IMG/VR virus record: IMGVR_UViG_3300017963_003053
Span: 1-23,820 of that record
Strand: one strand, 5' to 3'
Length of the DNA stretch: 23,820 bases
DNA from: a virus
In this document: piece by piece, positions 178 through 22,738 of the stretch
Layout of the letters: each line of letters begins with the position of its first letter
Position numbering within the stretch: the first letter of the stretch is position 1
Translations under genes and position numbers: made by a program
Notes under the pieces: model-generated
Databases searched by the model: none
Told to the model about the DNA's origin: nothing
The model's input: only the letters and a program-made list of their open reading frames with translations

Positions 178-1425
178 TTAGGGAGTATAGCTTTTGACTT
201 TGTTTACTTCATCTTCACGCCAGCCCATGAACAACGCTTCTTCTACCTCTTCCATGGTAAAGGGTTCATGGTCTCTCCCATAGTCTTTTGGGTAGAGCAT
301 CTCATGAGCGTCACGCATGAACCGAGTGCTGATTGCTCTTTCAAGACGGTGTGCATCCACGGCCTTGCGATAACGTAAAAGTAGAGCACGCAATTCGTCG
401 TCAGGACAGAGGATAGTTTCTACCCGTTCATCATAGTCCATGGCTACTTTGCCGATATGGAATCGGTCAAGACTTGCGGCATCCAGTTTGTTACGACCGC
501 TGTAAAGACGGTCAGCCCCAGTACCTACCGTGTTGGCGGCAGCGGTGCAAACAAAATCCGCATGACGTTTGGCGTAAGGTTTCTTAGGACGGTTTGACAC
601 AGCCACTTGCCCATTAGCCAAGGCCGCATTTATGAAAAGCAGCACGTTACTGTCTGCGGCATCAATCTCATCCAGAAGGAACACGCCACCGTTTTCATAA
701 CACTTTATGAACTCACTAACCCCGTAGTTGAATTGTCCGTTCCTTCCGGTAGGCAACAGACGACCGCCCAATACACCCTCTGACATTCCGCTGGTGCAAG
801 AGACAAACGCAAAAGGCAGACCCAAAGCAGTGGCTACTTGTTCACACAGATGAGACTTACCGCAGCCAGTGGGACCGTACACGAATATGTTTTTGCGGGC
901 CTGAGCAAGTTTCAAAACACGGCGGAACTGAGCGTGGAAAAGGTCCTTCATGACCTTTGCTTTTTTGGTTCCAGGTTTCTTGATTCGCACTTCCACAACG
1001 TTCATAGAGGCTTTCTTGACTTCTTCGCGTGCTTTGTCACGTTCCTTCTCAGCTGTCTCTGCTTGCTTTTTAGAGACACCGATCTGGTGTTGAAGTTCAG
1101 CGACAGACGCCTTCATTCTTTCTATTTGCAGTCGCCACTGCTCTTGGGTTCGGTTGTGAGTCCTTTCATCTGACCCATCTTGCTGGTCTCGGGAGGTCTT
1201 ATGACCAAACCGGCCCGGTTCTCCACGAAGCCTGCCTACGCCACAAATCAGACCCACTTCATGCATCGTGAGAATAATGGTAGCGATTCTACTCGTATTA
1301 CTAGTGGAGATATAACGTCTCACTTCTTCTATCAACCGGAGTTTGGTCCAGTAACGGTTTGGTTTCTCAGCAAGAATCCGAAGCACAGTTAGTACTACAG
1401 CACTGTAATCAAACTTTCTAGCCAT
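178..1425 (-). CDS. MoxR/CobS-type AAA+ ATPase with N-terminal winged helix and coiled coil
   Basis: 415 residues. Residues 1-75 look like a winged-helix domain and 95-140 form a charged coiled coil. The AAA+ module spans about 155-400: Walker A GPTGCGKS (184-191), Walker B VFLLDEID (248-255), sensor-1 Asn in AAANTVGTG (about 298) and an LDRF arginine (321). The ANTxGxG and LDAASLDRF pattern is that of the CobS/CbbQ/MoxR branch, whose members remodel partner proteins, usually with a VWA-domain partner encoded next door. Here the neighbours are two cysteine-rich small proteins upstream and the partial gene downstream. AAGGAG lies a few bases before ATG 1425. Fusion of a DNA-binding-like winged helix to a MoxR core is unusual and suggests that it acts at DNA or on transcription. 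The ATPase family is sure, the target unknown. Confidence 0.88.
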   Translation of the reverse strand: MARKFDYSAVVLTVLRILAEKPNRYWTKLRLIEEVRRYISTSNTSRIATIILTMHEVGLICGVGRLRGEPGRFGHKTSRDQQDGSDERTHNRTQEQWRLQIERMKASVAELQHQIGVSKKQAETAEKERDKAREEVKKASMNVVEVRIKKPGTKKAKVMKDLFHAQFRRVLKLAQARKNIFVYGPTGCGKSHLCEQVATALGLPFAFVSCTSGMSEGVLGGRLLPTGRNGQFNYGVSEFIKCYENGGVFLLDEIDAADSNVLLFINAALANGQVAVSNRPKKPYAKRHADFVCTAAANTVGTGADRLYSGRNKLDAASLDRFHIGKVAMDYDERVETILCPDDELRALLLRYRKAVDAHRLERAISTRFMRDAHEMLYPKDYGRDHEPFTMEEVEEALFMGWREDEVNKVKSYTP

Positions 1426-1495: not shown

Positions 1496-1771
1496 CTATT
1501 CATAATCTGTGTCTTCCTCTTCATCATCCTCTTCATCATAGGGATCATCCTCTTCATCATAGGGATCAAACGGTTCGCCCTCTTCGTCCATCCATTCAGT
1601 GAGGGCGTCGCCATTGTCCCACTCTTTTATCATGGTACACCCACAATCACACTCCCAAGTAAGTACGATACCACTATCTGTGATGTCTATTTCATCGGGG
1701 CTTCCAAGAGAGGCATCGCAACGAGGACAAGCACTAGACAAAACCGCTTCCGTTAGGTAAGTACCACTCAT
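1496..1771 (-). CDS. Small zinc-ribbon protein with acidic tail
   Basis: 91 residues from ATG 1771. That ATG overlaps the TGA of the upstream gene (ATGA) and follows a strong GGGAGG, so I prefer it to the ATG at 1804. Two cysteine pairs, CPRC (15-18) and CDCGC (41-45), look like a zinc ribbon. The last 22 residues are almost all Asp/Glu/Tyr, with DPYDEED present twice in tandem; at DNA level this is a short tandem repeat around 1541-1570. It is translationally coupled to the cysteine-rich protein encoded at 1768-2193. Function is unknown; binding to a basic partner or to the DNA-binding face of another protein is only a guess. Confidence 0.75.
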   Translation of the reverse strand: MSGTYLTEAVLSSACPRCDASLGSPDEIDITDSGIVLTWECDCGCTMIKEWDNGDALTEWMDEEGEPFDPYDEEDDPYDEEDDEEEDTDYE

Positions 1772-2193
1772 TTCGCACCTCCCTTCCGCCGATGCTCGGC
1801 ACAAACGACACGGCCAGTACCCCGAATCAACTGCCCGTCAATTCCGTTCTCTTTACAGACTCCGCAAATCACTTCCCCTGCCCAACACGATCCGCAGTAC
1901 ATACAATCCGGGTGCGTCTTGGGTTCTCGGCAGCGACACTTCTTTTTTGCCGTCTGCTTCTTCGCTGGCTTCTGAGGTTTCTGGTTACGGCGGAAGTCAT
2001 CGCCATCAGTTTCATCAAACACTTCCCATTTGTCGCCGAACCAACCGTATTGCTCCACTAGTAGACACACATCGTTGTCGAAGAGCACAAGGGCTTCACC
2101 GTCTTGCATAATCGTGTCTACGATCTTGGCATTCGGTTGTCCCATCTCTTCGCGCATGTAACGGACAGCTTCGGTTCGCATTGTGTTACTCAT
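1768..2193 (-). CDS. Cysteine-rich putative zinc-binding protein
   Basis: 141 residues. ATG 2193 is chosen because GGAGAAG stands directly before it; the longer frame from 2247 would run through the hammerhead ribozyme sequence. The N-terminal 60 residues look like a small alpha/beta unit (ALVLFDNDVCLLVEQYGWFG). A lysine-rich linker follows (70-85), then a C-terminal module with Cys 86, 88, 97, 100, 103, 110, 113 and 131 and His 134, enough for two zinc sites. It is the first gene of the minus-strand operon that includes the MoxR-like ATPase. The long structured leader with a self-cleaving ribozyme lies just upstream. Role unknown. Confidence 0.78.
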   Translation of the reverse strand: MSNTMRTEAVRYMREEMGQPNAKIVDTIMQDGEALVLFDNDVCLLVEQYGWFGDKWEVFDETDGDDFRRNQKPQKPAKKQTAKKKCRCREPKTHPDCMYCGSCWAGEVICGVCKENGIDGQLIRGTGRVVCAEHRRKGGAK

Positions 2194-2208
2194 CGTACTT
2201 CTCCAAAA

Positions 2209-2261
2209 AGGGTTTCGTAAAGGTAACTCATCAGAGCGGGGTACCAATCCCCGCTGACCCT
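2209..2261 (-). ncRNA. Hammerhead ribozyme, type III
   Basis: Read on the minus strand from 2261 to 2209. Stem III is AGGGU (2261-2257) with ACCCU (2213-2209), 5 bp. The cleavage triplet GUC ends at C2256. Stem I is AGCGGGG (2255-2249) with CCCCGCU (2241-2235), 7 bp, loop AUUGGUA. The core CUGAUGA is 2234-2228. A short stem II (2227-2217) has G-C, U-A, a U-U mismatch and A-U closing a 3-nt loop. GAAA is 2216-2213. Every core nucleotide of the hammerhead consensus is present in the right order, including A15.1-U16.1 and C17. Both chain ends lie in stem III, so it is type III. Cleavage would fall after C2256, giving the mRNA for the 1768-2193 gene a new 5' end. Stem II is short and weak, the main doubt. 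Confidence 0.82.
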
Positions 2262-2262
2262 G

Positions 2263-2305
2263 CGATTGTCTCGGCTACCTTTGGTAGGGCATGCGGAGAC
2301 AATCG
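2263..2305 (-). repeat. 10-bp stem with inner hairpin next to the ribozyme
   Basis: CGATTGTCTC (2263-2272) and GAGACAATCG (2296-2305) are perfect inverted repeats. Inside them CTACC (2275-2279) and GGTAG (2283-2287) form a second stem with a 3-nt loop. On the minus-strand transcript this element ends one base before stem III of the hammerhead ribozyme, so it could stack on it. Confidence 0.7.
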
Positions 2306-2648
2306 TTGAGTGTCTTATCCGGTTTGATTCGCTCGAATGCGTCCAACTACCCTTCGCATCATTCGTTTGTGTGTCGTTCGACTAGAATGACCCGCGTAAA
2401 ATCCTGCGGTAGGTCAGGGCGATAGCAGAGGACTACCGGATGAGAGCTAAAAGCCAGACCGTTATCGTCTAACTTTTCGTTTCTTCTTTCCCGTTCTCTT
2501 TAGAGAGCTAAGGGGGTTGCGTCTGGCGTTTTTGTCTTCTTACAGGGTACTAGGTCGGTCAACCTGTTTTCGCCTGTCGCGGGTCCAAAAACGTTCCCTT
2601 CTTCCGCAAGCCGTTCAAGTTATCAAAGAGCGTAATTCAACTACGTAT

Positions 2649-2677
2649 AATATAAGGTATTATCGGGACAGAGTAAA
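2649..2677 (-). promoter_or_regulatory. Promoter TTTACT-N17-TATATT for the ribozyme-led operon
   Basis: On the minus strand a TTTACT -35 box (2677-2672) is followed after exactly 17 bases by TATATT (2654-2649). The same -35 box and spacing occur at 4444-4472, 4647-4675 and 20953-20981. It points to the operon starting at 2193 and would give a leader of about 450 nt. Confidence 0.6.
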
Positions 2678-2858: not shown

Positions 2859-2908
2859 AAAAAGGCGGGTATTCCCGGCAAAAGAGGATTGATCCAGGAA
2901 TACCCGCC
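2859..2908 (-). terminator. Intrinsic terminator of the ParB-like gene
   Basis: GGCGGGTATTCC (2864-2875) and GGAATACCCGCC (2897-2908) form a perfect 12-bp stem with a 21-nt loop. On the minus strand a run of five T follows. It begins 33 bases after the stop of the minus-strand gene at 2941. Bases 2757-2858, further on, are T/A-rich with a CGGTC-G-GACCG palindrome and no gene. Confidence 0.85.
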
Positions 2909-2940: not shown

Positions 2941-4365
2941 TTAGGCCGCTATAGGCTGCTTATTGCGTAAGTGGGTCACAGCGACTGGTTTGACGTTACC
3001 TGCCCCTTGGAACCCTTGCGATACTTTTATCTCAGCAGACTTATCTTTCAAGGATAAGACTCTTCCCTGCCAAGGCTCATCTACTCCGTTTACAACCCAG
3101 ACAAGTTTACCTTTGAGCTTAGTAGGAGCCTTTGTTGTTGTCTTAGTGGACTTACTCTTTTTGGAGGAGGGTCTGGTTGACGCCTTGCGCTGTTCTCGTC
3201 TTTTGCGGATAGCTCTTTTCTCTTTTTCAACCTGTTCGCTTTGGAACTCCTCATTCTTGGCAGCGTCACCTAAGTCAATTCCCCCCACTGTGGGTATCTC
3301 AGAGAGAACCGGCCAGCCGTCCTTTTCAACAAACTTGAGAGCAATACCCTCTTTGGTAATCTGCTTTTCGCGAATATAGAGATTCCACGCTTTTGCAATA
3401 ACAGAGGTACGAACAAGAACCGAATCACCACCGTCGTCGATGATCTTCTGGAGAGAATACTTGATAGGAGACACTTCATCAGCATCGTTTGCTAACAACA
3501 CGAAGAAGTCACAAGCGGCATCCCAGTTTTTCCAACTTAGATGTTTTTCATCTTGTTCCTTCCGGTACTTTGTTGGATTGGTAGAAGAACAACCCATGAG
3601 GTAGAGCATCCCACAAGCATAGCCTGTTCTCAACAGCCGTCCAATCTTTCCTTCCTTGTCATTCTCGGCATGGATATGTTGAGCAGCCTCAAGAATCTTT
3701 GGATGGTTGTCTCCAAAGGCAATCAGTTCTGGGTGAGTGTCTTTGAGACCAGGATGAAACGCTTTTACATACCCAGTACGGTACCAGATGTGCTTTACGC
3801 CATAGCTAAGAATACCTGCTAGGTCTTTCCGTTCTTTAGGCCTGATCTTTTGGAGTAGATCAGACCGAAAGTAAACGTCAGTTAGGGATCGGGGTTTACA
3901 AGTATCCATAGTATTGACTGTTGTGTCATCTTCTTCCACCCCATAAACAATGGCAGTAGAAATGGTTGGTGAAGAGGACCATTCAGGGTAAGCATTAGGG
4001 TCTTTTTCGTATGCTTGGTTTGCGAGGACAAGGGCGATAAGGGTATGTTGCCCGTTTAGAACTAATCCTGTTTTACCAATGATGCGTGTCTCTCCATTAA
4101 AGCACCATCGGCCACGTAGAATCTCCTGTTGAAGCTTTTCAACGTTTGAAAGGTACAAAGGACGATTACGAATGTTGTTGATGCAGCGCACTTTCTTTTG
4201 GTACAAGTCTTTTAGAAGAAAGTCTGTTCCAAAAGTAGAGTTGCCCTCTTCAGTCCACCCTAGTAGCTTTTTGGCTAACCCAATGTCTAGTCTTTGTACA
4301 AACTCTGCCTTAGGTTTGTACGACACAACACGATGCTTGGCCTTCCGTTGCTGCTTCTTGACCAT
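2941..4365 (-). CDS. ParB-like domain protein
   Basis: 474 residues from ATG 4365 (GGGAG 8 nt upstream); an in-frame ATG at 4398 would add 11 residues, and I prefer 4365. Residues 70-115 carry the ParB/sulfiredoxin-like signature: a helix (NVEKLQQEILRGRW), then a strand pair ending in LVLNGQHTLIAL, matching the D/N-G-Q-H-R/T motif of phage and actinobacterial ParB-like proteins. The middle is helical. Residues 380-430 are Lys/Ser/Thr-rich and basic, and the last 50 residues resemble a small SH3/KOW-like barrel (KLVWVVNGV...WQGRVLSL). ParB-fold proteins are variously DNA binders, CTPases or nucleases; no ParB partner or parS-like site is evident. It is monocistronic, with its own promoters and terminator. 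A regulatory or DNA-tethering role is inferred. Confidence 0.65.
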   Translation of the reverse strand: MVKKQQRKAKHRVVSYKPKAEFVQRLDIGLAKKLLGWTEEGNSTFGTDFLLKDLYQKKVRCINNIRNRPLYLSNVEKLQQEILRGRWCFNGETRIIGKTGLVLNGQHTLIALVLANQAYEKDPNAYPEWSSSPTISTAIVYGVEEDDTTVNTMDTCKPRSLTDVYFRSDLLQKIRPKERKDLAGILSYGVKHIWYRTGYVKAFHPGLKDTHPELIAFGDNHPKILEAAQHIHAENDKEGKIGRLLRTGYACGMLYLMGCSSTNPTKYRKEQDEKHLSWKNWDAACDFFVLLANDADEVSPIKYSLQKIIDDGGDSVLVRTSVIAKAWNLYIREKQITKEGIALKFVEKDGWPVLSEIPTVGGIDLGDAAKNEEFQSEQVEKEKRAIRKRREQRKASTRPSSKKSKSTKTTTKAPTKLKGKLVWVVNGVDEPWQGRVLSLKDKSAEIKVSQGFQGAGNVKPVAVTHLRNKQPIAA

Positions 4366-4443
4366 ACTACAGGCTCCCAATCTAAAAAGTAGTAGCATCT
4401 CTCATGACATCGTCACATGCCGAGCCACCGGATGCTCGAAACC

Positions 4444-7591: not shown

Positions 7592-7810
7592 ATGTTATAT
7601 CAGTTGCATCATCAACATCGTAATGGTCTAACTGATTTTCTTGCTCAGACAAAGATTGCTGATGTTCTTCCTTGTACTGCACAACGAAAGATTTTAACAG
7701 AATGGGTCCTGCGAATGCAGATCAGGCATCCTTTACCCGCTAATTGTTCGTGGTTGCTATGCAAACAATCTGATCCTCAATTCATGGTTTGTTCTAGGAA
7801 GGAAAACTAG
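7592..7810 (+). CDS. Small hypothetical protein
   Basis: 72 residues with AAGGGAAG upstream of ATG 7592. The stop lies 3 bases before the next gene. It has four cysteines, no clear zinc-site spacing and no recognised domain. The frame fills the gap between the exonuclease and the Sak4-like gene exactly, which supports it, but the composition is unremarkable. Confidence 0.55.
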   Translation: MLYQLHHQHRNGLTDFLAQTKIADVLPCTAQRKILTEWVLRMQIRHPLPANCSWLLCKQSDPQFMVCSRKEN

Positions 7811-7813
7811 GTT

Positions 7814-8677
7814 ATGGTCAAAGTGCGCAAACAAACTGCAAGACGAAAGACAAAACGAGCAACAAAAGCAACCCGTGTAATGACAAAAGTAAGCCCAATT
7901 GGTTTTGAAAAAGACCAAGGTATCAGTATCAACATCTTTGGCCGTAGTGGGTCGGGCAAAACAACTCTGTGGAGCACTTTTCCGGGAAAGATTATTGTTA
8001 TGCTTGCTAGTGGCGGGCGGAACACAGGAGAACTACGTTCAATTGATACTGCGGCCAACCGAAAAAAGATTGACCAAGTGGTGTTAGCAGAGAGCGTTGA
8101 GCTAGTTGATGTGTGTAAGCATGTACAAAGGAAGGGAGGATATCAAACAGTCGTATTGGAGCATGCTACGGGTCTTCAAGAGTTGGTACTCAAAGAGATA
8201 CTAGGCATAGATGAGATACCTGCTCAAATGTCTTGGGGTATTGCAAAGCGAGAACAGTGGGGCCAGTGCACCCTACAGATGAAAGAATTGCTTCGTCAAT
8301 TATTAGACTTGATGTGCAACGTTGTGGTAGTTGCTCAGGAGCGAGAATTCAAGTCAGATGACGATGAGGAAGAAGCACTACTGCTTCCACGGGTAGGCTC
8401 TGCACTGGCTCCTTCTGTGACAGGGTGGGTAAACTACTCTTGTGACTACGTTGTTCAAACGTTTGTGCGAGCAAAAAGGAACAAGAAGGTAATCAAGGTC
8501 GGTAAGAAAAAAGTGGAGCGGTTAGTGAAAGGGGCAGGAGTAGAGTACTGTGTCCGAGTTGGACCCAGTGAGGTTTACATGACAAAGTTCAGAAACCCAA
8601 GAACAGACAAACCGATGGAAGAAGTCATGGTTGATGGTAGTTACCAGAAAATCATGAAGCTGATTCAACGTAAGTAA
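7814..8677 (+). CDS. Sak4/RecA-like AAA ATPase (phage recombinase)
   Basis: 287 residues. A basic N-terminal extension (1-25) precedes a RecA-core ATPase: Walker A GRSGSGKT (43-50), a conserved FPGKIIVML strand after it, and Walker B YQTVVLEHAT (110-119), where the usual Asp is Glu. The VVVVAQERE strand and the late SCDYVVQTF strand fit the Sak4 single-strand annealing/RecA-like family (AAA_24 type). Such proteins pair with a ssDNA-binding protein encoded next to them; the acidic protein at 8714-9766 fits that place. Expected role: strand annealing or exchange in phage recombination-dependent replication. The Glu-for-Asp change may affect hydrolysis. Confidence 0.82.
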   Translation: MVKVRKQTARRKTKRATKATRVMTKVSPIGFEKDQGISINIFGRSGSGKTTLWSTFPGKIIVMLASGGRNTGELRSIDTAANRKKIDQVVLAESVELVDVCKHVQRKGGYQTVVLEHATGLQELVLKEILGIDEIPAQMSWGIAKREQWGQCTLQMKELLRQLLDLMCNVVVVAQEREFKSDDDEEEALLLPRVGSALAPSVTGWVNYSCDYVVQTFVRAKRNKKVIKVGKKKVERLVKGAGVEYCVRVGPSEVYMTKFRNPRTDKPMEEVMVDGSYQKIMKLIQRK

Positions 8678-8713: not shown

Positions 8714-9766
8714 ATGGCTAAGCGTAAAAAAAGCAGTTTGTTCAGTGTGGTAGGTAAGGCTGGAGTAAAAGCCTTTAACACACACAAAGAAGATGCTACT
8801 ACGGTTGCTGGGGGTGATCTGCCTCCAGGTATTGAGAATGGTATTGCCCGTTTAACGGAGTGTAAATTTGACACGTTCAAAAAGGGAGACTTCCAGGGAG
8901 AATACTACTTTATTGCTTCTGGCGTAGTGCTGTCTCCTGAAGCGGTGGATGGAATCCCTGTAAAAGGATTGCACACCCGGATTGGACCTGAGCCTATCTG
9001 TGACACCCCTGATCGCAGTCGTGAGTCTCTTGACGAACACCTAGCTTGGGTACTGAACCAACTACGATTGCTAGGATGTGAGACAAAAGACCTTGACTTT
9101 GAAGACCTTGAAGAAACTGTGTCTGTCTTAAAAGAGGCAGCACCAACTTTCCGTTTCCGAACGTGGAAAGGAGAACCCACTAAGGCTTGGCCCAACCCGC
9201 GTGTTAACAACCAGTGGAACGGTATTGTTGATTGGGACGATGCCACTGATCCTGATTCGGAAGTTGAAGAAGTTGAAGAAGATGAAGAAGATGAATCCCT
9301 TGCAGAATTGGGAGAAGCTGCCGATGGAGGAGATTCTGATGCCGAGACAAGTCTGACTAAAAAAGCTGAAGAAGCAGGAATAGACCCTGACGAATACACC
9401 ACGTGGACTAGTCTTGCGTCTGCTATTGAGCTTGCATCTGAAGAAGAGGACGAAGAAGAGGACGAAGAAGAGGAAGAGGAAGAGGAAGAGGAGGAGGAGG
9501 AAGACACCGATGAAGAAGATGAGGATGAGGATGAGGATGAAGAAGAAGAAGAAGAAGAGGAAGAAGACGATGATGATGAAGATGCTGAAGAAGAACCACC
9601 GGAGAAAGGTGACGTGTATTACTTCAAGCCTCCCAAAGCAAGGAAGAAAATTGAAGTGACAGTGACTGCTGTGTTTGCAGGAAAGGAAACCTGCAACGTG
9701 AAGTCATTGGATGATGGAAAGGTCTACAAGAAGGTAGCCTGGGATAAGCTTAGCACGGAAGAGTAA
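8714..9766 (+). CDS. Probable ssDNA-binding protein with very long acidic tract
   Basis: 350 residues, AAGGAG upstream. Residues 40-175 form a compact beta-rich domain (ARLTECKFDTF, GEYYFIASGVVL, FRFRTWKGE, WNGIVDWD) like phage ssDNA-binding proteins encoded beside Sak4. Residues 215-240 contain a small helical motif (AEEAGIDPDEYTTWTSLASA). Residues 243-294 are 50 Asp/Glu out of 52 (exceptions Thr264, Ala291). The last 50 residues look like an SH3/KOW-type barrel (GDVYYFKPP, KIEVTVTAVFAG, VAWDKL). Acidic tails of SSB proteins recruit partners and self-regulate DNA binding, but here the acidic stretch is internal. Assignment as the SSB partner rests on position and domain look, not on a named motif. 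Confidence 0.6.
   Translation: MAKRKKSSLFSVVGKAGVKAFNTHKEDATTVAGGDLPPGIENGIARLTECKFDTFKKGDFQGEYYFIASGVVLSPEAVDGIPVKGLHTRIGPEPICDTPDRSRESLDEHLAWVLNQLRLLGCETKDLDFEDLEETVSVLKEAAPTFRFRTWKGEPTKAWPNPRVNNQWNGIVDWDDATDPDSEVEEVEEDEEDESLAELGEAADGGDSDAETSLTKKAEEAGIDPDEYTTWTSLASAIELASEEEDEEEDEEEEEEEEEEEEEDTDEEDEDEDEDEEEEEEEEEDDDDEDAEEEPPEKGDVYYFKPPKARKKIEVTVTAVFAGKETCNVKSLDDGKVYKKVAWDKLSTEE
9440..9595 (+). repeat. Purine-rich GAA/GAG/GAT/GAC codon tract
   Basis: 156 bases of almost pure GAN codons coding the acidic segment of the preceding gene. It is nearly all purine on the plus strand, prone to replication slippage and able in principle to form triplex DNA. Length variation between relatives is likely. 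Confidence 0.8.
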
Positions 9767-10794: not shown

Positions 10795-12824
10795 GAATTG
10801 CGCTTGACACTGAGACCACTGGATTGGATTTGTACCATGGAGACAAACCATTCATGGTGCAGGTTTGTTTTGAAGACGGCAACCAACTGTGGTGGGAGTG
10901 GGATGTTGACCCTCTTACTAGAGAGCCCAAAGTCATAGAAGAGGAACTAAACGAGATACAAAGCACGTTGGATTCTGCTGATGAAATCGTTTTGCAGAAT
11001 CCTAAGTTTGATTACTGCGCTTTGCGTACTGTGATGCCAAATTTGCGGTGGGATTGGGGTAAGGTAAAGGACACTCTGCTAGCAGGGCACTTGTTGGCTA
11101 GCAACGAGAGGCATGATCTCACTACTATGGCTTTGATCTATCTTGGAGTGGATGTTCAAAGCTATGAAGACAACGTGCGTAAGGCTGTACTAGCAGTTCG
11201 ACGGTTCTGCATGGGACGGAATCCTAAGTATCCCGATTGGATGATAGCAAGAGGCGGCAATCCAAAGATGCCAAGCGCAAAAGAAAGTAGCTGGAAAAAC
11301 GATATGTGGCTGCCCCGTGCTTACGCTCTAGAGAATAACCTGCCGAAGGGCCATGAGTATTGGAGCGTCACGGAAAAGTACGGCAATAACGACACAGAGA
11401 CTACGCTTGCACTCTATGGGCGACAACTCAAGTTGCTTAGAGAAAAACGGCTAGTGCGTCTTTACCAAGAGAGGTTGAAGCTACCTGGTATTGTAGCAGC
11501 CATGGAGGATCAAGGTGTTACCTTCAGTCAAAAACGGGTAAAGCAGCGACACAAACAATACCGGAAAGAGTCTGTTGACTACGGTAAGGTATGCAAGACC
11601 TTAGCAAGCAAAAAAGGGATAGAACTAACCTTACCAAAGTCAGGAAACAACAAATCATTACTATTGGCAGTTGAAGCTTTACTGCCTGCTAAAGTGAATC
11701 TCCCTTTGACAAAAAAGGGCAATCCGTCTTTGTCGGCCGACACGATTGAAGAATTGTTGAGTACTCTAACAGAAACTAGTCCTGCTTCTAAGTTTTTAAC
11801 GGCTCTAGTAGAGAAGCGCAAAAGGGATACTGCGGTGAGCTACTTAGAAGGGTACCAAAAATACCAACTACCATTACGGGTATTCAAGCGGGGCAAACGA
11901 TTGAGATATGTTAATTGGTATGTACTACATCCCTCTTTGAATCCAACTGGGTCTCATACGTTGAGATGGAGCAGCAAACACCCTAATGAGCAAAATATCA
12001 GCAAAAAGGATGGCTTTAATCTCCGGTATTGCTTTGGACCTGCTCCAGGCCGTGAATGGTGGTCTATTGATGCTAAGAATCTAGAGTTGCGAATCCCAGC
12101 CTATGTTGCCCAAGAAACAGAACAAATCAATCTGTTTGAAAAGCCCGATGAACCCCCTTACTACGGCAGTAACCACCTACTAGTGTTTGATATCCTTTGG
12201 ACAGAAAAGCTAGGATTAGACACATCTGATCCAAAGTACCTACTGAAGGCCAAAAGTAAGTACAAGGCAACACACTACCAGTGGACAAAGAATGGTAATT
12301 TTGCCGTGCAGTATGGTGCAGTAGAAGAGAGCGGTACAGCTGACCGTACTTACCACCAGAAGGGAGCACAGGCAAAAATTCAAAGACGGTTTGCTAAGTC
12401 ACGTGTCCTAAATGAAAAGATGATTGCAGTCGCTGAACAGCGTGGCTATGTAGAAACGTTGCCTGATAAAACAGTTGATCCGACAAGGGGATACCCTTTG
12501 TGGTGTAAGCGCACTAAGTGGGGACGAATAATGCCTACTACTCCGTTGAACTATATGGTGCAAGGTACTGCGATGTGGTGGATGATGAAGGCTATGATTC
12601 GAGTGCAAGAATACCTAGATACTCTCAAAGGCTCCTACATGATTATGCAGGTACACGATGAGCTAGTCTTTGACTTTCCAAAAGCCAAGAAAAGAAACCT
12701 TCCGAAGATACGGAAGATAGCACAGTTAATGGAGCAAGGGGGAGAGGATATTGGGGTTCCTACTCCTGTAAGTATTGAGTACCATCCCGTGTCTTGGGAT
12801 ACGGGTGTTTCTGTCGTAACATAG
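10791..12824 (+). CDS. polA: Family A DNA polymerase with 3'-5' exonuclease
   Basis: 677 residues from ATG 10791: GAGGAAAAG stands just before it and it overlaps the upstream TGA as ATGA, so I prefer it to ATG 10767. Proofreading domain: DTETTGLD (Asp6, Glu8), NPKFDY (Asp74), YGNNDTE (Asp201). Polymerase domain: HTLRWSSKHPNEQNIS (389-404), motif A SIDAKNLELR (Asp427, Glu432; T7-like DAxxLELR), motif B KNGNFAVQYG (Lys500, Phe504, Tyr508), PLNYMVQGTA (585-594), motif C QVHDELVF (620-627). No 5'-3' exonuclease domain. This is the likely replicative enzyme. The position of the conserved O-helix arginine (R754 of E. coli Pol I) appears to be Tyr496. Phe504 occupies the E. coli F762 site. Confidence 0.95.
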   Translation: MRIALDTETTGLDLYHGDKPFMVQVCFEDGNQLWWEWDVDPLTREPKVIEEELNEIQSTLDSADEIVLQNPKFDYCALRTVMPNLRWDWGKVKDTLLAGHLLASNERHDLTTMALIYLGVDVQSYEDNVRKAVLAVRRFCMGRNPKYPDWMIARGGNPKMPSAKESSWKNDMWLPRAYALENNLPKGHEYWSVTEKYGNNDTETTLALYGRQLKLLREKRLVRLYQERLKLPGIVAAMEDQGVTFSQKRVKQRHKQYRKESVDYGKVCKTLASKKGIELTLPKSGNNKSLLLAVEALLPAKVNLPLTKKGNPSLSADTIEELLSTLTETSPASKFLTALVEKRKRDTAVSYLEGYQKYQLPLRVFKRGKRLRYVNWYVLHPSLNPTGSHTLRWSSKHPNEQNISKKDGFNLRYCFGPAPGREWWSIDAKNLELRIPAYVAQETEQINLFEKPDEPPYYGSNHLLVFDILWTEKLGLDTSDPKYLLKAKSKYKATHYQWTKNGNFAVQYGAVEESGTADRTYHQKGAQAKIQRRFAKSRVLNEKMIAVAEQRGYVETLPDKTVDPTRGYPLWCKRTKWGRIMPTTPLNYMVQGTAMWWMMKAMIRVQEYLDTLKGSYMIMQVHDELVFDFPKAKKRNLPKIRKIAQLMEQGGEDIGVPTPVSIEYHPVSWDTGVSVVT

Positions 12825-14911: not shown

Positions 14912-15760
14912 ATGAAACTGTTCATTTATGTACCAACACGGGGAAGAATCCTAGATCAAAAGTCTATGCGGTTTTTGCGATTAAAAGAATGTAAAGACCG
15001 TGTGGCATTTGTAGTTCCACAGTGTGAAGCCTTAGCATTCAAACGAAAGTACTCTTGGGCTAAAGTCAAAGTTGTGAAAGATGAATGGAAGATTGGAACA
15101 ATCAGTCAGTACATTATTGAAAGTAAAGGTCGGTACAAGGTTTTGATTGACGATGACTTTCAATTGCTTCGAAGACGGAACAAACTTAGTGTGTCTCAAA
15201 AAGGGGGGGTAGCTACTGATAAAGACGTTAGACTGCTGTTTGCTCGGGTAAAGTACTGGTTAAGAAAAGGTTTTGCTCACGGTGGGGTAAGTCTACGACA
15301 AACAAACCACTTTTGCAAGGATGCTTGGTACAAATTTAATAGTCGAGTGTCTGGGTTTATGTTTTTTGACTCACGGGTTGTGCGCCAAGAGGGAATAAGA
15401 TTTGATGCCGTACAAGAGAGACAAGACTTTCACATGACACTATCGTTGCTAGAATTGGGTTACTCTAATGTAGTTGATTATGAGTTTGCAGTCGGTCAGT
15501 ACATTCAGGGGACAAATGCTGCGGGCGGTTGCTCCCGATACCGAACACCAGTGTTTTTGTTGGAACAAGCAGAACGGTTAGCACAGCTGCACCCAAAGAC
15601 GGTTAGAGTTGTTTTCAAGCAACCGAAAGTAGCTGAAGCTACAAAGTCTATGTTGACGGACAAAGGCATACCCGATGTAAGGATACAATGGGTGAAATCG
15701 CTGGGGCTTCGTTCAGCAGAAAGAAAAGTAACAAAACCTTACCGCTGTGTGAGAGTGTGA
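14912..15760 (+). CDS. TAGT-like glycosyltransferase (copy 1)
   Basis: 282 residues. GT-A-like fold signs: KLFIYVPTRGR at the N-terminus, VAFVVPQCEA, and the metal-binding IDDDFQL with Asp80-82. The C-terminal half carries ERQDFHMTLSLLELGYSN, then AAGGCSRYRT and DVRIQWVKSLG, as in TET-associated glycosyltransferases of phages. That family transfers sugars to hydroxymethylated pyrimidines in DNA. A second copy lies at 18378-19169, sharing the start, DDD motif, GGC-YRT block and DVRxQWxKS block. No TET-type hydroxylase is in the window; the hydroxymethylase at 21617 would supply the hydroxyl instead. Sugar and acceptor unknown. Its stop overlaps the deacetylase start (TGATG). Confidence 0.75.
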   Translation: MKLFIYVPTRGRILDQKSMRFLRLKECKDRVAFVVPQCEALAFKRKYSWAKVKVVKDEWKIGTISQYIIESKGRYKVLIDDDFQLLRRRNKLSVSQKGGVATDKDVRLLFARVKYWLRKGFAHGGVSLRQTNHFCKDAWYKFNSRVSGFMFFDSRVVRQEGIRFDAVQERQDFHMTLSLLELGYSNVVDYEFAVGQYIQGTNAAGGCSRYRTPVFLLEQAERLAQLHPKTVRVVFKQPKVAEATKSMLTDKGIPDVRIQWVKSLGLRSAERKVTKPYRCVRV

Positions 15761-16302
15761 TGTATTGGTTGATTGAACCTCATGCTGATGATGTGTTTCT
15801 TTCTTTACACCAGCACATAGTTGACCTTTGGAAAGATGTTTCAAAAACTATTGTAACTGTATTTGCTACACAACAAAGAGTTAAAGAAGCACGGGAATAC
15901 GCTTTGGCAGTTAAATGTCGACACTTCTGTCTAGGATTAGAAGAAGGGGGTGGCTTATCTCAAAAAGCAGGCTTTGTGCCTCCATTTGACGAGTGGAAGT
16001 TGCCTAGAAAAAGAGGGGATGTCCTCATCTTTCCTATTGGAATACAACACCCAGACCATTTAGCAGTTGCGAAACGTGTGCCTACAATCGGAGTAGTTTG
16101 GCGGTATTTGGATACTCCTTACTACACAAAACAAAAGGTAGCCCAAGAGTTGATAGAAAAAACTCGGGGGCGTTGTATTCGATCAATAAGGTATGCCACT
16201 AGGCATAAATGGAAGCACGTTGAAAAGTTCAAAAGTCAAGGCAAGTTTTTCTTTTACAATCCTCCCAACACTTTACCTCGGATGGAGGTAGTCATGTCAT
16301 GA
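15760..16302 (+). CDS. PIG-L/LmbE-family deacetylase
   Basis: 180 residues from ATG 15760, sharing one base with the upstream stop. The N-terminal EPHADD (His8, Asp10, Asp11) matches the zinc-binding PHPDDE signature with Pro-to-Ala and Glu-to-Val changes. IQHPDHLAVA matches the second HPDH motif. This family removes acetyl groups from N-acetyl sugars (GlcNAc-PI, mycothiol precursors, BshB). At about 180 residues it is short. Coupled to a glycosyltransferase, it probably deacetylates the transferred sugar or its nucleotide donor, leaving a free amine; that role is inferred. Confidence 0.78.
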   Translation: MYWLIEPHADDVFLSLHQHIVDLWKDVSKTIVTVFATQQRVKEAREYALAVKCRHFCLGLEEGGGLSQKAGFVPPFDEWKLPRKRGDVLIFPIGIQHPDHLAVAKRVPTIGVVWRYLDTPYYTKQKVAQELIEKTRGRCIRSIRYATRHKWKHVEKFKSQGKFFFYNPPNTLPRMEVVMS

Positions 16303-16502
16303 ACCACAAAAGAGATGCTATTCCCGCTTGGAAGTACAAGGTAGGAAAACAAACAGCATACAATCGTTGGTTTGAAGGAAAAGGTGCCCCCCTACAAAGT
16401 GACATATTTCAGAGGACACATGAGAGCAACCCAGTTATTAGTAGAAAGGCAATAACGTGTTGTATAAACAGCATTCTCCGTTTTCAGTACAAGTTGAGTT
16501 AG
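16299..16502 (+). CDS. Small hypothetical protein
   Basis: 67 residues. ATG 16299 overlaps the deacetylase TGA (ATGA) and GGAGG stands about ten bases upstream. The last 46 bases overlap the radical SAM gene. The peptide is basic (pattern AWKYKVGKQTAYNRWFEGKG) with no recognised domain. The start context is good, but the long overlap leaves doubt. Confidence 0.5.
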   Translation: MNHKRDAIPAWKYKVGKQTAYNRWFEGKGAPLQSDIFQRTHESNPVISRKAITCCINSILRFQYKLS

Positions 16503-17413
16503 TAGAGGGGTGTTCCCTGGCTTGCTCTTTTTGCGGAATCAATGGGATCAGAAAAGGTCCTGGAAACTTCAAGTATGCTCGGTTAGGAATGCTAAGTAGG
16601 GTGGCAGCAGAAATAGCAAGACTAAAATGGACGCCTCGCATTGAATTTGCTATGCATGGAGAACCAAGCTTGCATCCTAAACTGCTTCATTGTGTGCGTG
16701 TCTTTCGCAGAAGATTGCCTCATCTATCTTTGATGCTAACAAGTAATGGTGCAGGCTTTCGAGGGAAACAGGTAGAAAGGATAGTAGCATTACAAAGGGC
16801 GGGTCTAAACGTTCTTGGCCTAGATAACTATGACCATGATGGTTCCGTTCCAGGCATTGTTAGAATGCTGCACAAAAAACACCCTAGTGTGCCTGTCCGG
16901 TATTACCCTGAAGACAAAGCAGCATCAGTATATCGAAAAAGAAAACCAGACTCGTTTGAAGTAGTCGTTTTGGCTGACATAAGAAAGCATGCTACCGGCA
17001 CTCGTAAACTCGCGAATCATGCTGGACAAGCATTTCCACCGGACACAAGTAAGCAAAATCAAAGGTGTGCGCTCCCATTTCGGGACTTAGCAATCCGTTG
17101 GGATGGTAATGTTGCTATCTGTTGTGACGATTTTAGAGGAACGTACAAAATAGCTAACGTGAAAGACATGCCGCTGGACGCTTTGTGGCAGCACCCTAGG
17201 TTTGTCGCTGCACGTAAGGCACTGTATCATCGACTCAGAGACTTCCTGCCTTGTGCGATCTGTAATGCTACCAGCATCCGCCCTGGTCTTTTGCCTGACC
17301 CTACTGGACAGGAGTCACTGCCTTTTCCATCGAGCAGGGATAACCAAGCCATGAAAGATGCTGTTGCAAACGGTCCTTATACAAAACCCGTTAAACGTCC
17401 TTGGGAGATGTAA
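16457..17413 (+). CDS. Radical SAM protein with SPASM-like C-terminus (copy 1)
   Basis: 318 residues from GTG 16457; an in-frame stop at 16442 excludes an earlier start, and AAAGG lies upstream. The radical SAM cluster motif CSLACSFC gives Cys19, Cys23 and Cys26. EFAMHGEPSLHP matches the GGEP-type motif. The C-terminal region (RCALPFRDLAIRWDGNVAIC, CC-D, then PCAIC and GLLPDPTG) has the cysteine layout of SPASM/twitch domains that bind extra Fe-S clusters. Chemistry could be C-C, C-N or C-S bond formation, epimerisation or dehydrogenation. It sits between glycosyltransferases and a deacetylase, so a nucleobase- or sugar-linked substrate is likely. It shares architecture with the next gene. 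Confidence 0.85.
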   Translation: MLYKQHSPFSVQVELVEGCSLACSFCGINGIRKGPGNFKYARLGMLSRVAAEIARLKWTPRIEFAMHGEPSLHPKLLHCVRVFRRRLPHLSLMLTSNGAGFRGKQVERIVALQRAGLNVLGLDNYDHDGSVPGIVRMLHKKHPSVPVRYYPEDKAASVYRKRKPDSFEVVVLADIRKHATGTRKLANHAGQAFPPDTSKQNQRCALPFRDLAIRWDGNVAICCDDFRGTYKIANVKDMPLDALWQHPRFVAARKALYHRLRDFLPCAICNATSIRPGLLPDPTGQESLPFPSSRDNQAMKDAVANGPYTKPVKRPWEM

Positions 17414-18376
17414 ATGTTCAAATTCCGTAAAGACAAACAACATGCTCCTTTCAACATTACTGTGGATGTCACTTCGGGGTGCTCTATTCGTTGCTCTTTC
17501 TGTGGTGTAAAGGGTGTTTACAGTAAAGCAGGGGTGTATGATCACATGAGCTTGAAGACGGGTAGACTTGTAGCACGCAAGTTAAATGAAGCAGGTTGGA
17601 TTTGCAGAATAACTATTGGATGTTTTGGAGAACCCACTGAAAACCCGCACTTGAAGGAGATTGTAAGAGCTATCCGAAAGGCTGCCCCTAAGCATTCAAT
17701 AATGATGTTGAGTAACGGGTCTGGTCTAGTAAAACACGCACAGAAAAAGTTTGAAGAATTGCATAACGCGGGATTGAATGCTATTTGTATTGAAGACTAT
17801 CGTAAGCAAGGGTTTCTTCAAAAGATACGAAAGCAAGGAGTGCAATTTGCGGGAAGATACCCAAACAACAAAAAGTTAAATCCGCAACAACGGTTCTCTG
17901 TCAATAAGCACTTAAACATTATCATCAACGATTTGAGGGACAACAGTGGTAGAGGGAGTAGTCATAGTCACATCAATAATCATTGCTGTTGCGGGGGTCC
18001 CCCTAATAATCGGGGCGTAGGTAAACGGTGCACTAGGCCTTTTCGTGATTTTGTTATTCGTTGGAATGGCTTTGTGCCCGGTTGCTGTAATGATTGGAGG
18101 ATGAAGTATGTGGTAGGTGACATTCGCAAACACACGTTTGAACAGTTGTGGCAGTCACAAGGATTTTATGCACTGCGTCAAAAAATGTATGCTGGTGAAC
18201 GAGATTTTGGTCCTTGTAATGGGTGCGATTTAATTGGCACAAGAGTGGGCTTGCTGCCTGATCCAACAGGCCAAATGGAGATGGAACCCCCCAATTCATT
18301 AACGGAACGTGTGCTTCAACAGTGCATGAGGCATCCTGATATGACGCCTGTAAATTTAAGAGCATGGGAACAGTAA
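17414..18376 (+). CDS. Radical SAM protein with SPASM-like C-terminus (copy 2)
   Basis: 320 residues, starting right after the previous stop, GGGAGATG upstream. The cluster motif CSIRCSFC gives Cys23, Cys27 and Cys30; GCFGEPTENP follows. The C-terminus (RCTRPFRDFVIRWNGFVPGC, CNDW, PCNGCD, GLLPDPTGQ) parallels copy 1, so the pair arose by duplication. Copy 2 alone carries an insert near residues 177-195 with HSHINNHCCC, an unusual His/Cys cluster that could bind an extra metal. The two may act in sequence or as a heterodimer. Substrate unknown. Confidence 0.85.
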   Translation: MFKFRKDKQHAPFNITVDVTSGCSIRCSFCGVKGVYSKAGVYDHMSLKTGRLVARKLNEAGWICRITIGCFGEPTENPHLKEIVRAIRKAAPKHSIMMLSNGSGLVKHAQKKFEELHNAGLNAICIEDYRKQGFLQKIRKQGVQFAGRYPNNKKLNPQQRFSVNKHLNIIINDLRDNSGRGSSHSHINNHCCCGGPPNNRGVGKRCTRPFRDFVIRWNGFVPGCCNDWRMKYVVGDIRKHTFEQLWQSQGFYALRQKMYAGERDFGPCNGCDLIGTRVGLLPDPTGQMEMEPPNSLTERVLQQCMRHPDMTPVNLRAWEQ

Positions 18377-18377
18377 A

Positions 18378-19169
18378 ATGCAAATCTTTATACCAACTAG
18401 GGGTAGGATTAACAACCAAGTAACTTTTGAACGGTTCCACTTGGCTAAAAGTCTATACCCAGTAACGTTTATTGTGCCTGAAGAGGAGTATCACGGGTTT
18501 GTGTCCAAGTGGGGTACTCAAGCAGAAATTAGGATAGTACCTAGTGAGTGGCACATTGGTAACATCCATGATTACATTGCTTCCTATTGGGGGGATAAAA
18601 AGCATGTGGTCATTGACGACGATTGCAAGTTGTATCATTGCCCGTCTAAAAAGTCATGCCTGATTGTTCGGCATGCAAGACAGGCACGTAATATGTTTTT
18701 ACAGTTAGAGAAGGCACTAGACACGTTCGCATACGCTGGGTTGACTCCTTCAGGTTACCACACGCTGAGCCCCTTTCCATCGTATGTCAACAGCCGCGTG
18801 TTGAACTTCCATGCTTATCGTCGCGACATCATCGTCAAAGAAGGGATCAAGTGGAGATTACCTACTAGTGGGGACCAGCATGCGGTTTTGACAACATTAG
18901 AACTTGGATACGCAGTACACCTAACAAATCGTTGGTGTGTCCAAGCTGCAAACTGGCAACCAGGCGGATGCACAGAGTATCGCACCGCAGAATTGGCGGA
19001 TCAATCCTTTCAAACGTTGGCCAAACTACACTCTAAAGTCAAATTACGCAAGTCTACTACGGCTACTGACCAACAAACACTTGACGTGCGCGTTCAATGG
19101 AAGAAGTCCTACGGAATACGTAAGTATGATCGTAAACTCAAACGACCAGGGGTGGAAGTATGCGACTGA
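18378..19169 (+). CDS. TAGT-like glycosyltransferase (copy 2)
   Basis: 263 residues, GGGAACA upstream. It parallels copy 1: MQIFIPTRGRINNQ start, VTFIVPEEEY, GNIHDYI, VVIDDDCKLYH with Asp80-82, DQHAVLTTLELGY, PGGCTEYRTAEL, and DVRVQWKKSYG. Two paralogues suggest two sugars, or a disaccharide added stepwise, or one enzyme for each of two acceptor positions. It lies downstream of the two radical SAM genes, overlapping the sulfotransferase-like gene by 10 bases. Confidence 0.75.
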   Translation: MQIFIPTRGRINNQVTFERFHLAKSLYPVTFIVPEEEYHGFVSKWGTQAEIRIVPSEWHIGNIHDYIASYWGDKKHVVIDDDCKLYHCPSKKSCLIVRHARQARNMFLQLEKALDTFAYAGLTPSGYHTLSPFPSYVNSRVLNFHAYRRDIIVKEGIKWRLPTSGDQHAVLTTLELGYAVHLTNRWCVQAANWQPGGCTEYRTAELADQSFQTLAKLHSKVKLRKSTTATDQQTLDVRVQWKKSYGIRKYDRKLKRPGVEVCD

Positions 19170-21616: not shown

Positions 21617-22738
21617 ATGCAAACGCAATGGTCTTTTAACTCGGTTGATGAGGCATTTGAAAATATGGTGAAGGTCTTTTTGACGTCAGAACAGGTACAA
21701 CAGACAAACAGTAGAAACGGACCAGTACTAAGACTGCCTGGCCCGCAACTGTTTGTGTATAAGCAACCCTGTAATCGTGTCTTGTTTAATCCTGCAAGAG
21801 ACTGTAACCCGTTTTTTCATCTGTTTGAGTCTCTTTGGATGCTCGCAGGGTGTAACCGTGTAAAACCTCTATCATATTACAATTCTAACATCACAGACTA
21901 CAGTGACGATGGAGAAACTTTTCATGGAGCTTATGGCTATCGTTGGCGTAGTCATTTTGGTGTAGACCAATTGAAACAGATCGAAGAAGAACTCTTACTA
22001 GATCGTGAGAGCCGTCGATGTGTTTTGCAAATTTGGTCCTCTACTGCTGATTTAGGAATCCATATGATTACAAAAGACAAGCCTTGTAACACGCATGCTT
22101 ATTTTGCCCTTGTAAACGACCATCTGGATCTGACTGTCTGTAACCGCAGCAACGACTTGGTTTGGGGAATGCTCGGTGCAAATTTTGTGCACATGACTTT
22201 GCTATTAGAATACATGGCCTGCTGTTTGAATGTGCCAATAGGACGGTACTTCCACATTACAAACAACTTGCACGTTTATCTCAGCAATTGGAGGCCATCA
22301 GACTGGACAAACTGGAAACAGCATCGAACGCAGTATTCTCCTCCTATTCTTAATCACCCAATGGGACATGGTCCTCGCTTAGTTAGTGACCAGACTGTAT
22401 TTGACGCAGAGTGTAAACGGTTTGTTGATTCGATTGACGGGACCTTCCAAGAGCCATTTCTACAAAACGTTGCCCAACCGATGATGGCAGCGTTTAGGGC
22501 ACATAAGCAAAGAAAGTATTTTGGTGACCTGAACTGCTTTACCCTTATTGACCGGGTGCATGCCCCTGACTGGAGAGAGGCAGGTCGGCAGTGGCTTATG
22601 CGAAGAAAAGAGAATTGGATGGCTAAAAACAAAAAAGGTAAAGGGAAAACCACTAACGTTTACCTTGCAAGGGAAGAGAAGAGACAGGCGGCGAATCCAG
22701 ACGATTCTCAGTACAATGGTAGTGGAGATTCTGACTAA
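21617..22738 (+). CDS. Thymidylate-synthase-family pyrimidine hydroxymethylase
   Basis: 373 residues, AAAGGAG upstream. Synthase-fold motifs: Glu71 in HLFESLWMLAG, FHGAYGYRWR (102-111), DRESRRCVLQIW (129-140), catalytic Cys157 in KPCNTH, and RSNDLVWGMLGANFVHMTLLLEYMA (177-201). The last block, RSND-W-G-GAN-VH, is that of dUMP/dCMP hydroxymethylases rather than the PFNIA block of true thymidylate synthases. The reaction would add a hydroxymethyl group to C5 of dUMP (or dCMP) using methylene-THF. Asn189 near the substrate site favours uracil if it matches E. coli Asn177, but a one-residue offset leaves that open. A Lys/Gln-rich tail of about 40 residues is extra. Confidence 0.82.
   Translation: MQTQWSFNSVDEAFENMVKVFLTSEQVQQTNSRNGPVLRLPGPQLFVYKQPCNRVLFNPARDCNPFFHLFESLWMLAGCNRVKPLSYYNSNITDYSDDGETFHGAYGYRWRSHFGVDQLKQIEEELLLDRESRRCVLQIWSSTADLGIHMITKDKPCNTHAYFALVNDHLDLTVCNRSNDLVWGMLGANFVHMTLLLEYMACCLNVPIGRYFHITNNLHVYLSNWRPSDWTNWKQHRTQYSPPILNHPMGHGPRLVSDQTVFDAECKRFVDSIDGTFQEPFLQNVAQPMMAAFRAHKQRKYFGDLNCFTLIDRVHAPDWREAGRQWLMRRKENWMAKNKKGKGKTTNVYLAREEKRQAANPDDSQYNGSGDSD

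Follow-up and report, generated by a model that had tools for sequence, protein, structure and literature searches.

Cleavage by a hammerhead ribozyme leaves a 2′,3′-cyclic phosphate on the 5′ product and a 5′-OH on the 3′ product. Hammerheads are common in phages, where their role has stayed unproven (Perreault et al. 2011, PMC3088659); in that paper a pseudoknot is described as being used by about 40% of all hammerhead types, and the dicing of operons is proposed as a function. The haloviruses HF1 and HF2 carry a hammerhead, HHphage, which precedes the start codon of an early transcript's first gene by 13 nt, and the mapped 5′ end of this transcript lies at most 3 nt from the HHphage cleavage site (PMC3088659).

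Leaders that contain the antitermination element boxA, for which the published gamma-proteobacterial consensus is GYTCTTTAANA (PMC5725501), are a second point of reference. The prevailing view is that boxA-bound Nus factors draw the RNA into a loop with RNA polymerase; this looping represses the translation of suhB and of lambda N (PMC5725501); the repression of lambda N is modulated by RNase III (as cited in PMC5725501).

Here, a hammerhead from the IMG/VR virus record IMGVR_UViG_3300017963_003053 is described, and the whole stretch analysed (23,820 bases) is referred to as the window. The hammerhead belongs to one conserved class that is almost always positioned directly before a ribosome-binding site and that escapes standard annotation cut-offs in the members scanned. 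The class holds its position across phages that have diverged strongly, and one clade has the hammerhead paired with an rRNA-type boxA-like element. Placement and boxA pairing together turn a vague idea of RNA processing into a specific and testable one.

Anatomy of the ribozyme

The minus strand of the window from 2262 to 2209 forms a complete type III hammerhead (Table 1) with the letters C AGGGU C AGCGGGG AUUGGUA CCCCGCU CUGAUGA G UUACCUUUA C GAAA CCCU. All hammerhead core positions occur here in order, as an earlier note on this DNA had read them, and the elements named by it (stem III AGGGU/ACCCU, GUC, the 7-bp stem I, CUGAUGA and GAAA) were each found within the place that it gave. Stem III consists of 5 bp (A2261-U2257 with A2213-U2209), the predicted cleavage site follows GUC at C2256, and stem I (2255-2249 with 2241-2235) has 7 bp closed by a 7-nt loop. 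A descriptor scan and the alignment to RF00008 both recover the type III core (CUGANGA...GAAA, with A15.1-U16.1 and an H17 that is not G), and the three helices are arranged with stem III open-ended, stem II being merely 1-2 bp long.

The pairs of stem II are limited to G2227-C2217 and U2226-A2218. The U-U mismatch that had been assigned to this stem is better read as part of a different arrangement, in which a 2-bp stem II is accompanied by a GGUA/UACC pseudoknot that covaries in relatives. The kissing pairs between loop I and loop II are G2245-C2222, G2244-C2223, U2243-A2224 and A2242-U2225, so that the mark of pseudoknotted hammerheads, Watson-Crick pairing of loop I with the stem II region, is present as 3-4 covarying kissing pairs. 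When the ribozyme segment is folded in isolation, stems III and I form as described.

Table 1. Features of the hammerhead locus in the window, in the direction of transcription (positions of the window)
Feature	Position	Strand	Remarks
Upstream gene (phrog_5931)	2941..4398	-	syntenic anchor for finding relatives
Intrinsic-terminator-like hairpin with T run	2859..2908	-	ends upstream gene
Sigma-70-like promoter TTTACT-17-TATATT	2649..2677	-	best site in promoter scan
Untranslated structured leader, ~385 nt	2256..2642	-	fold z ~-2.8; start placed from promoter
boxA-like element GCTCTTTGATAACTTGAACGGC	2610..2631	-	near-match to published consensus; recurs in relatives
Hairpin directly 5′ of ribozyme, 10-bp outer stem	2263..2305	-	z -4.65
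Type III hammerhead	2209..2262	-	predicted cut C2256/A2255; RF00008 30.7 bits; leave-out model 64.2 bits
Stem III 5′ strand AGGGU	2257..2261	-	partner ACCCU 2213-2209; covaries in relatives
Stem I 5′ strand AGCGGGG	2249..2255	-	7/7 stem I pairs covary
Loop I AUUGGUA	2242..2248	-	GGUA pairs with loop II UACC; pseudoknot covariation
Stem I 3′ strand CCCCGCU	2235..2241	-	covariation in relatives
Catalytic core CUGAUGA	2228..2234	-	sequence; invariant in alignment of relatives
2-bp stem II and loop II	2217..2227	-	UACC at 2225-2222 kisses loop I
GAAA (G12 A13 A14 A15.1)	2213..2216	-	sequence; invariant in relatives
Shine-Dalgarno GGAG	2201..2204	-	4 nt past ribozyme end
First gene, 141-aa Cys-rich protein	1768..2193	-	KCRCREPKxHPDC motif
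Second ORF, 102 aa, acidic C-terminus	1496..1804	-	ORF list
AAA_5 / CobS-MoxR-like ATPase (phrog_249)	178..1425	-	family searches

Detection and significance

The search with the Rfam hammerhead III model, put forward by the earlier note as a check, did return a match (E 1.3e-6 when this model alone was run on the whole record; E 7e-5 for the full-length alignment when 301 nt were compared with 4227 families), at a score of 30.7 bits that lies under the RF00008 gathering cut-off of 48.5 bits. Since no hammerhead was reported at the Rfam gathering threshold in any of the 18 loci of the class that were scanned, this cut-off is uninformative for the class. The segment 2262-2209 is a hammerhead by its anatomy, yet not a member by the Rfam cut-off. 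A covariance model built from 30 viral relatives, with the window excluded, scores it at 64.2 bits (E 1e-16).

Rfam scans of the whole window miss the site and a scan of a short stretch recovers it, for which speed filters are probably responsible. Matches resembling mascRNA and snoRNA (E 0.84 and 3.8) were rejected as chance, and a search with the exact 25-nt ribozyme pattern gave no match. A descriptor scan for types I-III found exactly one hammerhead and no second one within the window; the rate per window in dinucleotide shuffles is 0.14 for sites of all types together and 0.02 under a weaker type III criterion (stem I of at least 5 bp and stem III of at least 4 bp).

Relatives and covariation

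Relatives were collected with two patterns. The first fixed only stem III (GGG/CCC), CTGATGAG and CGAAA and left stem I unconstrained; it matched 55 IMG/VR contigs, most of which carry a stem I of 5-8 bp. The second fixed the stem I and loop spacing of the window and left stem III free beyond two pairs, and it retrieved 68 contigs, most with all 7 stem I pairs and a loop I of the form NNUNGYA. A stricter version of the second pattern matched only twice in 257 Gb of prokaryote genomes, and both matches were rejected as chance as neither has a stem I. Chance matches thus appear to be few, and the class, judged by these pattern searches, looks essentially viral.

Among 37 distinct members, 99.6% of the cells in stem I are paired and both-sided changes occur at 7 of the 7 pairs; the stem III pairs beyond the fixed U-A and G-C also covary. 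In the same members, nucleotides 4-6 of loop I pair with nucleotides 5-3 of loop II. Columns 18-41 of this pseudoknot hold GC in 20 cases, AU in 6, CG in 3 and UA in 1, columns 20-39 hold UA in 32 and CG in 5, and double changes number 10 and 5 at two of the pairs. None of 500 shuffles matched the covariation score, and in slid controls the pairing falls from 96.5% to about 30-44%. Stem I and the loop-loop pseudoknot are under selection.

Type II permutations were recognized by eye among the later elements of L066 and L073, with the same stem I, loop and pseudoknot. Both loci (L066:1054-1670 and L073:3198-3868, minus strand in each) contain rows of very small genes, with a type III hammerhead first and apparent type II copies after it, and in L066, L073 and L107 a hammerhead-like element stands before each of several successive small genes.

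Placement before the ribosome-binding site

Among the distinct hammerheads with a well-formed stem I, a Shine-Dalgarno (SD) sequence with a start codon follows within 30 nt in 56 of 72, and within 60 nt in 60. By comparison, positions drawn at random from this DNA give 6.6%, and the antisense strand gives 4 of 92. In the window the ATG of the first gene lies at 2193-2191 (minus strand). Sixty SDs could be scored, of which 5 lie inside stem II or the core and 11 overlap stem III; the remainder usually start 0-9 nt past the ribozyme. Loci with an SD in stem II or overlapping stem III are L005, L014, L017, L019, L048, L067, L069, L071, L079, L083, L094 and L099, and in the first five of these the start codon comes nearly directly after the ribozyme. 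The freeing of such buried SDs would need both cleavage and unfolding. For the window RNA, the energy model gave no clear difference in SD accessibility between the cleaved and uncleaved forms, and masking of the SD is therefore not claimed for it. A further set of closely related hammerheads (L068, L072, L078, L084, L097, L106 and L109) is followed by AGGG(C/A)..., mostly with no start codon nearby; what lies behind them may be a noncoding RNA or a gene farther off.

Family searches agree with the operon content first proposed, a cysteine-rich protein followed by an AAA_5/CobS-MoxR-like ATPase. The 141-aa cysteine-rich protein matched no Pfam or PHROG family, and its gene has no DNA or protein match among cultured phages; its KCRCREPKxHPDC motif is also found in the protein encoded downstream of the G001/L006 hammerhead. 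In G003, G005 and G006 a gene located just past a hammerhead encodes a MoxR/CobS-like ATPase about 54% identical to that of the window, and G004 has a less similar one (about 36-39%) in such a position. Across the class the downstream genes share no common family, which led to the rejection of a gene-specific role for the hammerhead. Searches of IMG/VR with one protein at a time (the Cys-rich protein, the MoxR-like ATPase or the thymidylate synthase) found no close relatives.

Elsewhere in the window, the regions 14912-19169 and 21617-22738 (plus strand) encode two TET-associated-type glycosyltransferases (TAGT / phrog_842), two radical SAM-SPASM proteins and a thymidylate-synthase homologue, a probable DNA-base hypermodification cluster. 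Between the genes for a Sak4-like annealing protein and a DNA polymerase, 8714-9766 (plus strand) encodes a protein with a very long Asp/Glu run and no family match.

The same locus in diverged phages

In the diverged phage G007, 12 genes of the window are matched at about 31-56% identity, and a hammerhead sits at the corresponding position, on the 3′ side of the gene homologous to 2941-4398; 3 of its 7 stem I pairs differ from those of the window, and the changes are compensating. A protein search with the 2941-4398 gene, which is independent of the RNA, returned 18 loci, and the hammerhead recurs at the place it has in the window in phages that share this neighbouring gene at 37-47% identity. 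Hammerheads anchored in this way are those of L157 (the G007 locus), L158, L165/L166, which have a CUGACGA core and a GUU site, and L161, which is decayed; L160 has a type II-like hammerhead with an extra U.

In L158 a type III hammerhead is followed by a type II, the two standing back to back in one leader (7704 to about 7810, plus strand), and a Bacillus-like boxA, GTTCTTTGAAAAC, which begins 6 nt after the -10 box, lies just before them. The L161 copy (about 7801-7851, plus strand) retains its stems, loop I, GAAA and an intact boxA leader, with UUGAAAA in place of the CUGAUGA core; by its sequence it is apparently dead. G007 (L139) also has a second copy of the 2941-4398 family (11163-12233, minus strand) that is 36% identical and has three in-frame stops.

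It is very improbable that the site in the window is a chance match or a dead relic. A score under the Rfam gathering cut-off and a decayed copy in L161 would fit such an origin; opposed to it are the result of the leave-out model (E 1e-16), the covariation among relatives, the synteny across genomes about 45% identical and the fact that the window keeps every core base intact. The main claim of the earlier note, that the 5′ leader of a phage operon holds a type III hammerhead, is supported by the covariance models, by covariation and by a placement that is both SD-adjacent and syntenic.

The upstream leader and its boxA-like element

The hammerhead had been placed between a promoter and a ribosome-binding site. 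The SD and ATG do follow it; the promoter lies far off, with the best sigma-70-like site about 390 nt upstream, and hence a long leader lies between promoter and ribozyme; the boxA-like element of this leader had been overlooked. Over the 80 nt before boxA the promoter-like score in eight leaders averages 8.5 of 12 against 6.1 in random windows, such scans being weak on their own. Within the boxA-like element, GCTCTTTGATA differs from GYTCTTTAANA at one position (A8 to G). The element also occurs in L006, L009, L158, L160, L161 and L165, and L023/L053 have a weaker form, GATCTTTGACAAC. An extended boxA pattern run over IMG/VR matched two contigs only, each with a hammerhead about 350-400 nt downstream.

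Among 15 distinct loci of the 2941-4398 gene, boxA is present in 5 of the 6 that carry a hammerhead, a variant of one or its remnant, and in none of the other 9 (Fisher p 0.002, for 15 related loci with relatedness uncorrected); the association weakens if the type II-like extra-U locus and the broken-core locus, 2 of the 6, are not counted as hammerheads. In the class as a whole, the strict boxA pattern accompanies 5 of 93 hammerheads, and the syntenic hammerhead of G007 is without it, so boxA cannot be the sole reason for the class. A second type of leader without boxA is seen in L012 and L065, which have in common AACACACGGGAG..GCAAAG and a TGACCGA motif immediately ahead of the hammerhead.

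These distributions bear on a plainer account, in which the cut matures the message either by fixing its 5′ end as a 5′-OH and a blunt hairpin, against 5′-end-dependent decay, or by making single-gene messages, and boxA is incidental. The majority of the class without boxA agrees with it, as do some hammerheads found between genes that follow one another closely, where they stand in tandem, about 280-330 nt from one to the next, before successive small genes; operon dicing, as proposed by Perreault et al. (PMC3088659), agrees as well. The co-occurrence of boxA and hammerhead in phages with the 2941-4398 gene argues against it, and there is little to dice in the window and G007, where the upstream gene ends in a terminator of its own before a new promoter. 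We regard plain maturation as somewhat unlikely.

The leaders are structured, with fold z of about -3.7 in each of the related L006 and L009 (Table 1 gives that of the window). This structure (z -2.8 to -3.7), the hairpin in which leaders end just before the ribozyme and a hairpin ACCUACCGC-N-GGAU...GCGG common to three leaders would suit the detached leader being the key product, either as a stable boxA noncoding RNA that acts in trans (for example by titrating NusB-S10) or as one that stays on the polymerase. Such a role is unlikely given that only about 80 nt separate boxA from the ribozyme in L158, that conservation of the leader is low beyond boxA (mean column identity 48%) and that the position of the ribozyme is fixed to the SD and not to the leader.

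When upstream RNA is included in the folding, an energy model without the pseudoknot favours a competing fold, by about 2.5-4 kcal/mol over the hammerhead, that pairs the 5′ strand of stem III with an upstream ACUC; this counts against the mechanism proposed below. The predicted competition, together with the SDs that are hidden in stem II or stem III of 16 among 60 relatives and would be freed by cleavage, could point to a regulated ribozyme whose leader senses a ligand or protein and captures the stem III strand, cleavage turning translation on. That the model leaves out both pseudoknot and core contacts weighs against this, as does the divergence of the leaders, too great for a common sensor, and regulation of this kind is considered quite unlikely.

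Proposed mechanism

With moderate confidence, we favour a pseudoknot-stabilised hammerhead that detaches a boxA leader from the message by cutting itself. Transcription would start from the promoter near 2677-2649, so that the boxA-like site (2631) would be near the 5′ end of the transcript. There it would be bound by the NusB-S10 of the host, which would hold the leader on RNA polymerase; Nus binding at this site is rather probable. The folded untranslated leader would follow the candidate boxA, and the ribozyme, transcribed last and directly before the SD, would cut the nascent RNA at C2256/A2255. Cleavage in the cell is very probable. It would release the boxA leader of about 385 nt, ending in the hairpin (2263..2305) and a 2′,3′-cyclic phosphate, and the message would then begin with a 5′-OH and a blunt 7-bp stem I hairpin, 62 nt before the start codon.

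The likely purpose would be to free ribosome loading while the antitermination complex holds the leader, with self-cleavage taking the place of the cut that RNase III makes in lambda between nutL and N; protection of the 5′ end of the message would be a by-product. Relief of Nus-loop repression as the reason for the hammerhead is put forward tentatively, by analogy with lambda N and suhB. It may be, and we suggest this with equal caution, that the phages with boxA-hammerhead leaders obtain antitermination without translational repression by a tethered loop, the self-cut right beside the SD freeing the message. Hammerheads without boxA would have to serve a wider purpose, the separation of the SD from whatever RNA precedes it. 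If the proposal is true, boxA-hammerhead leaders would give phage hammerheads a defined physiological role.

Comparison with known systems

The ribozyme resembles the type III hammerheads of RF00008 in all core bases, in the GUC, and in an open stem III with stems I and II closed by loops; it differs in that the class has a stem II of 1-2 bp with kissing loops and falls below the gathering cut-off. Type II hammerheads (RF02276) share the module of stem I, loop I and pseudoknot and stand in tandem with type III in L158, L066 and L073, and they are distinguished by circular permutation, with GAAA on the 5′ side.

The pseudoknotted hammerheads of Perreault et al. 2011 are alike in the loop I-loop II pseudoknot, in tolerating a very short stem II, in their phage context and in clustering near genes, whereas no regular position beside the SD and no leader with boxA were found described in the accessible parts of that paper (PMC3088659). 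HHphage of HF1/HF2 likewise lies close before the start codon of a first gene; in the same parts it is grouped with core-variant hammerheads, belongs to an archaeal virus and has no boxA reported (PMC3088659). Hammerheads in phage leaders are already known, and the pairing with boxA appears to be new: in the literature searched, no published description was found of an SD-fixed class missed by Rfam cut-offs or of a boxA-hammerhead leader.

The leaders of lambda N (nutL - RNase III site - N) and suhB have an antitermination site and a structured spacer (PMC5725501), to which the boxA-like element and the folded leader of the window would correspond. In both, the downstream gene is translationally repressed by a loop tethered to RNA polymerase (PMC5725501), and the window is likened to them in its possible working only. 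The lambda N leader is cut by RNase III, whereas in the window the cut would be the RNA's own.
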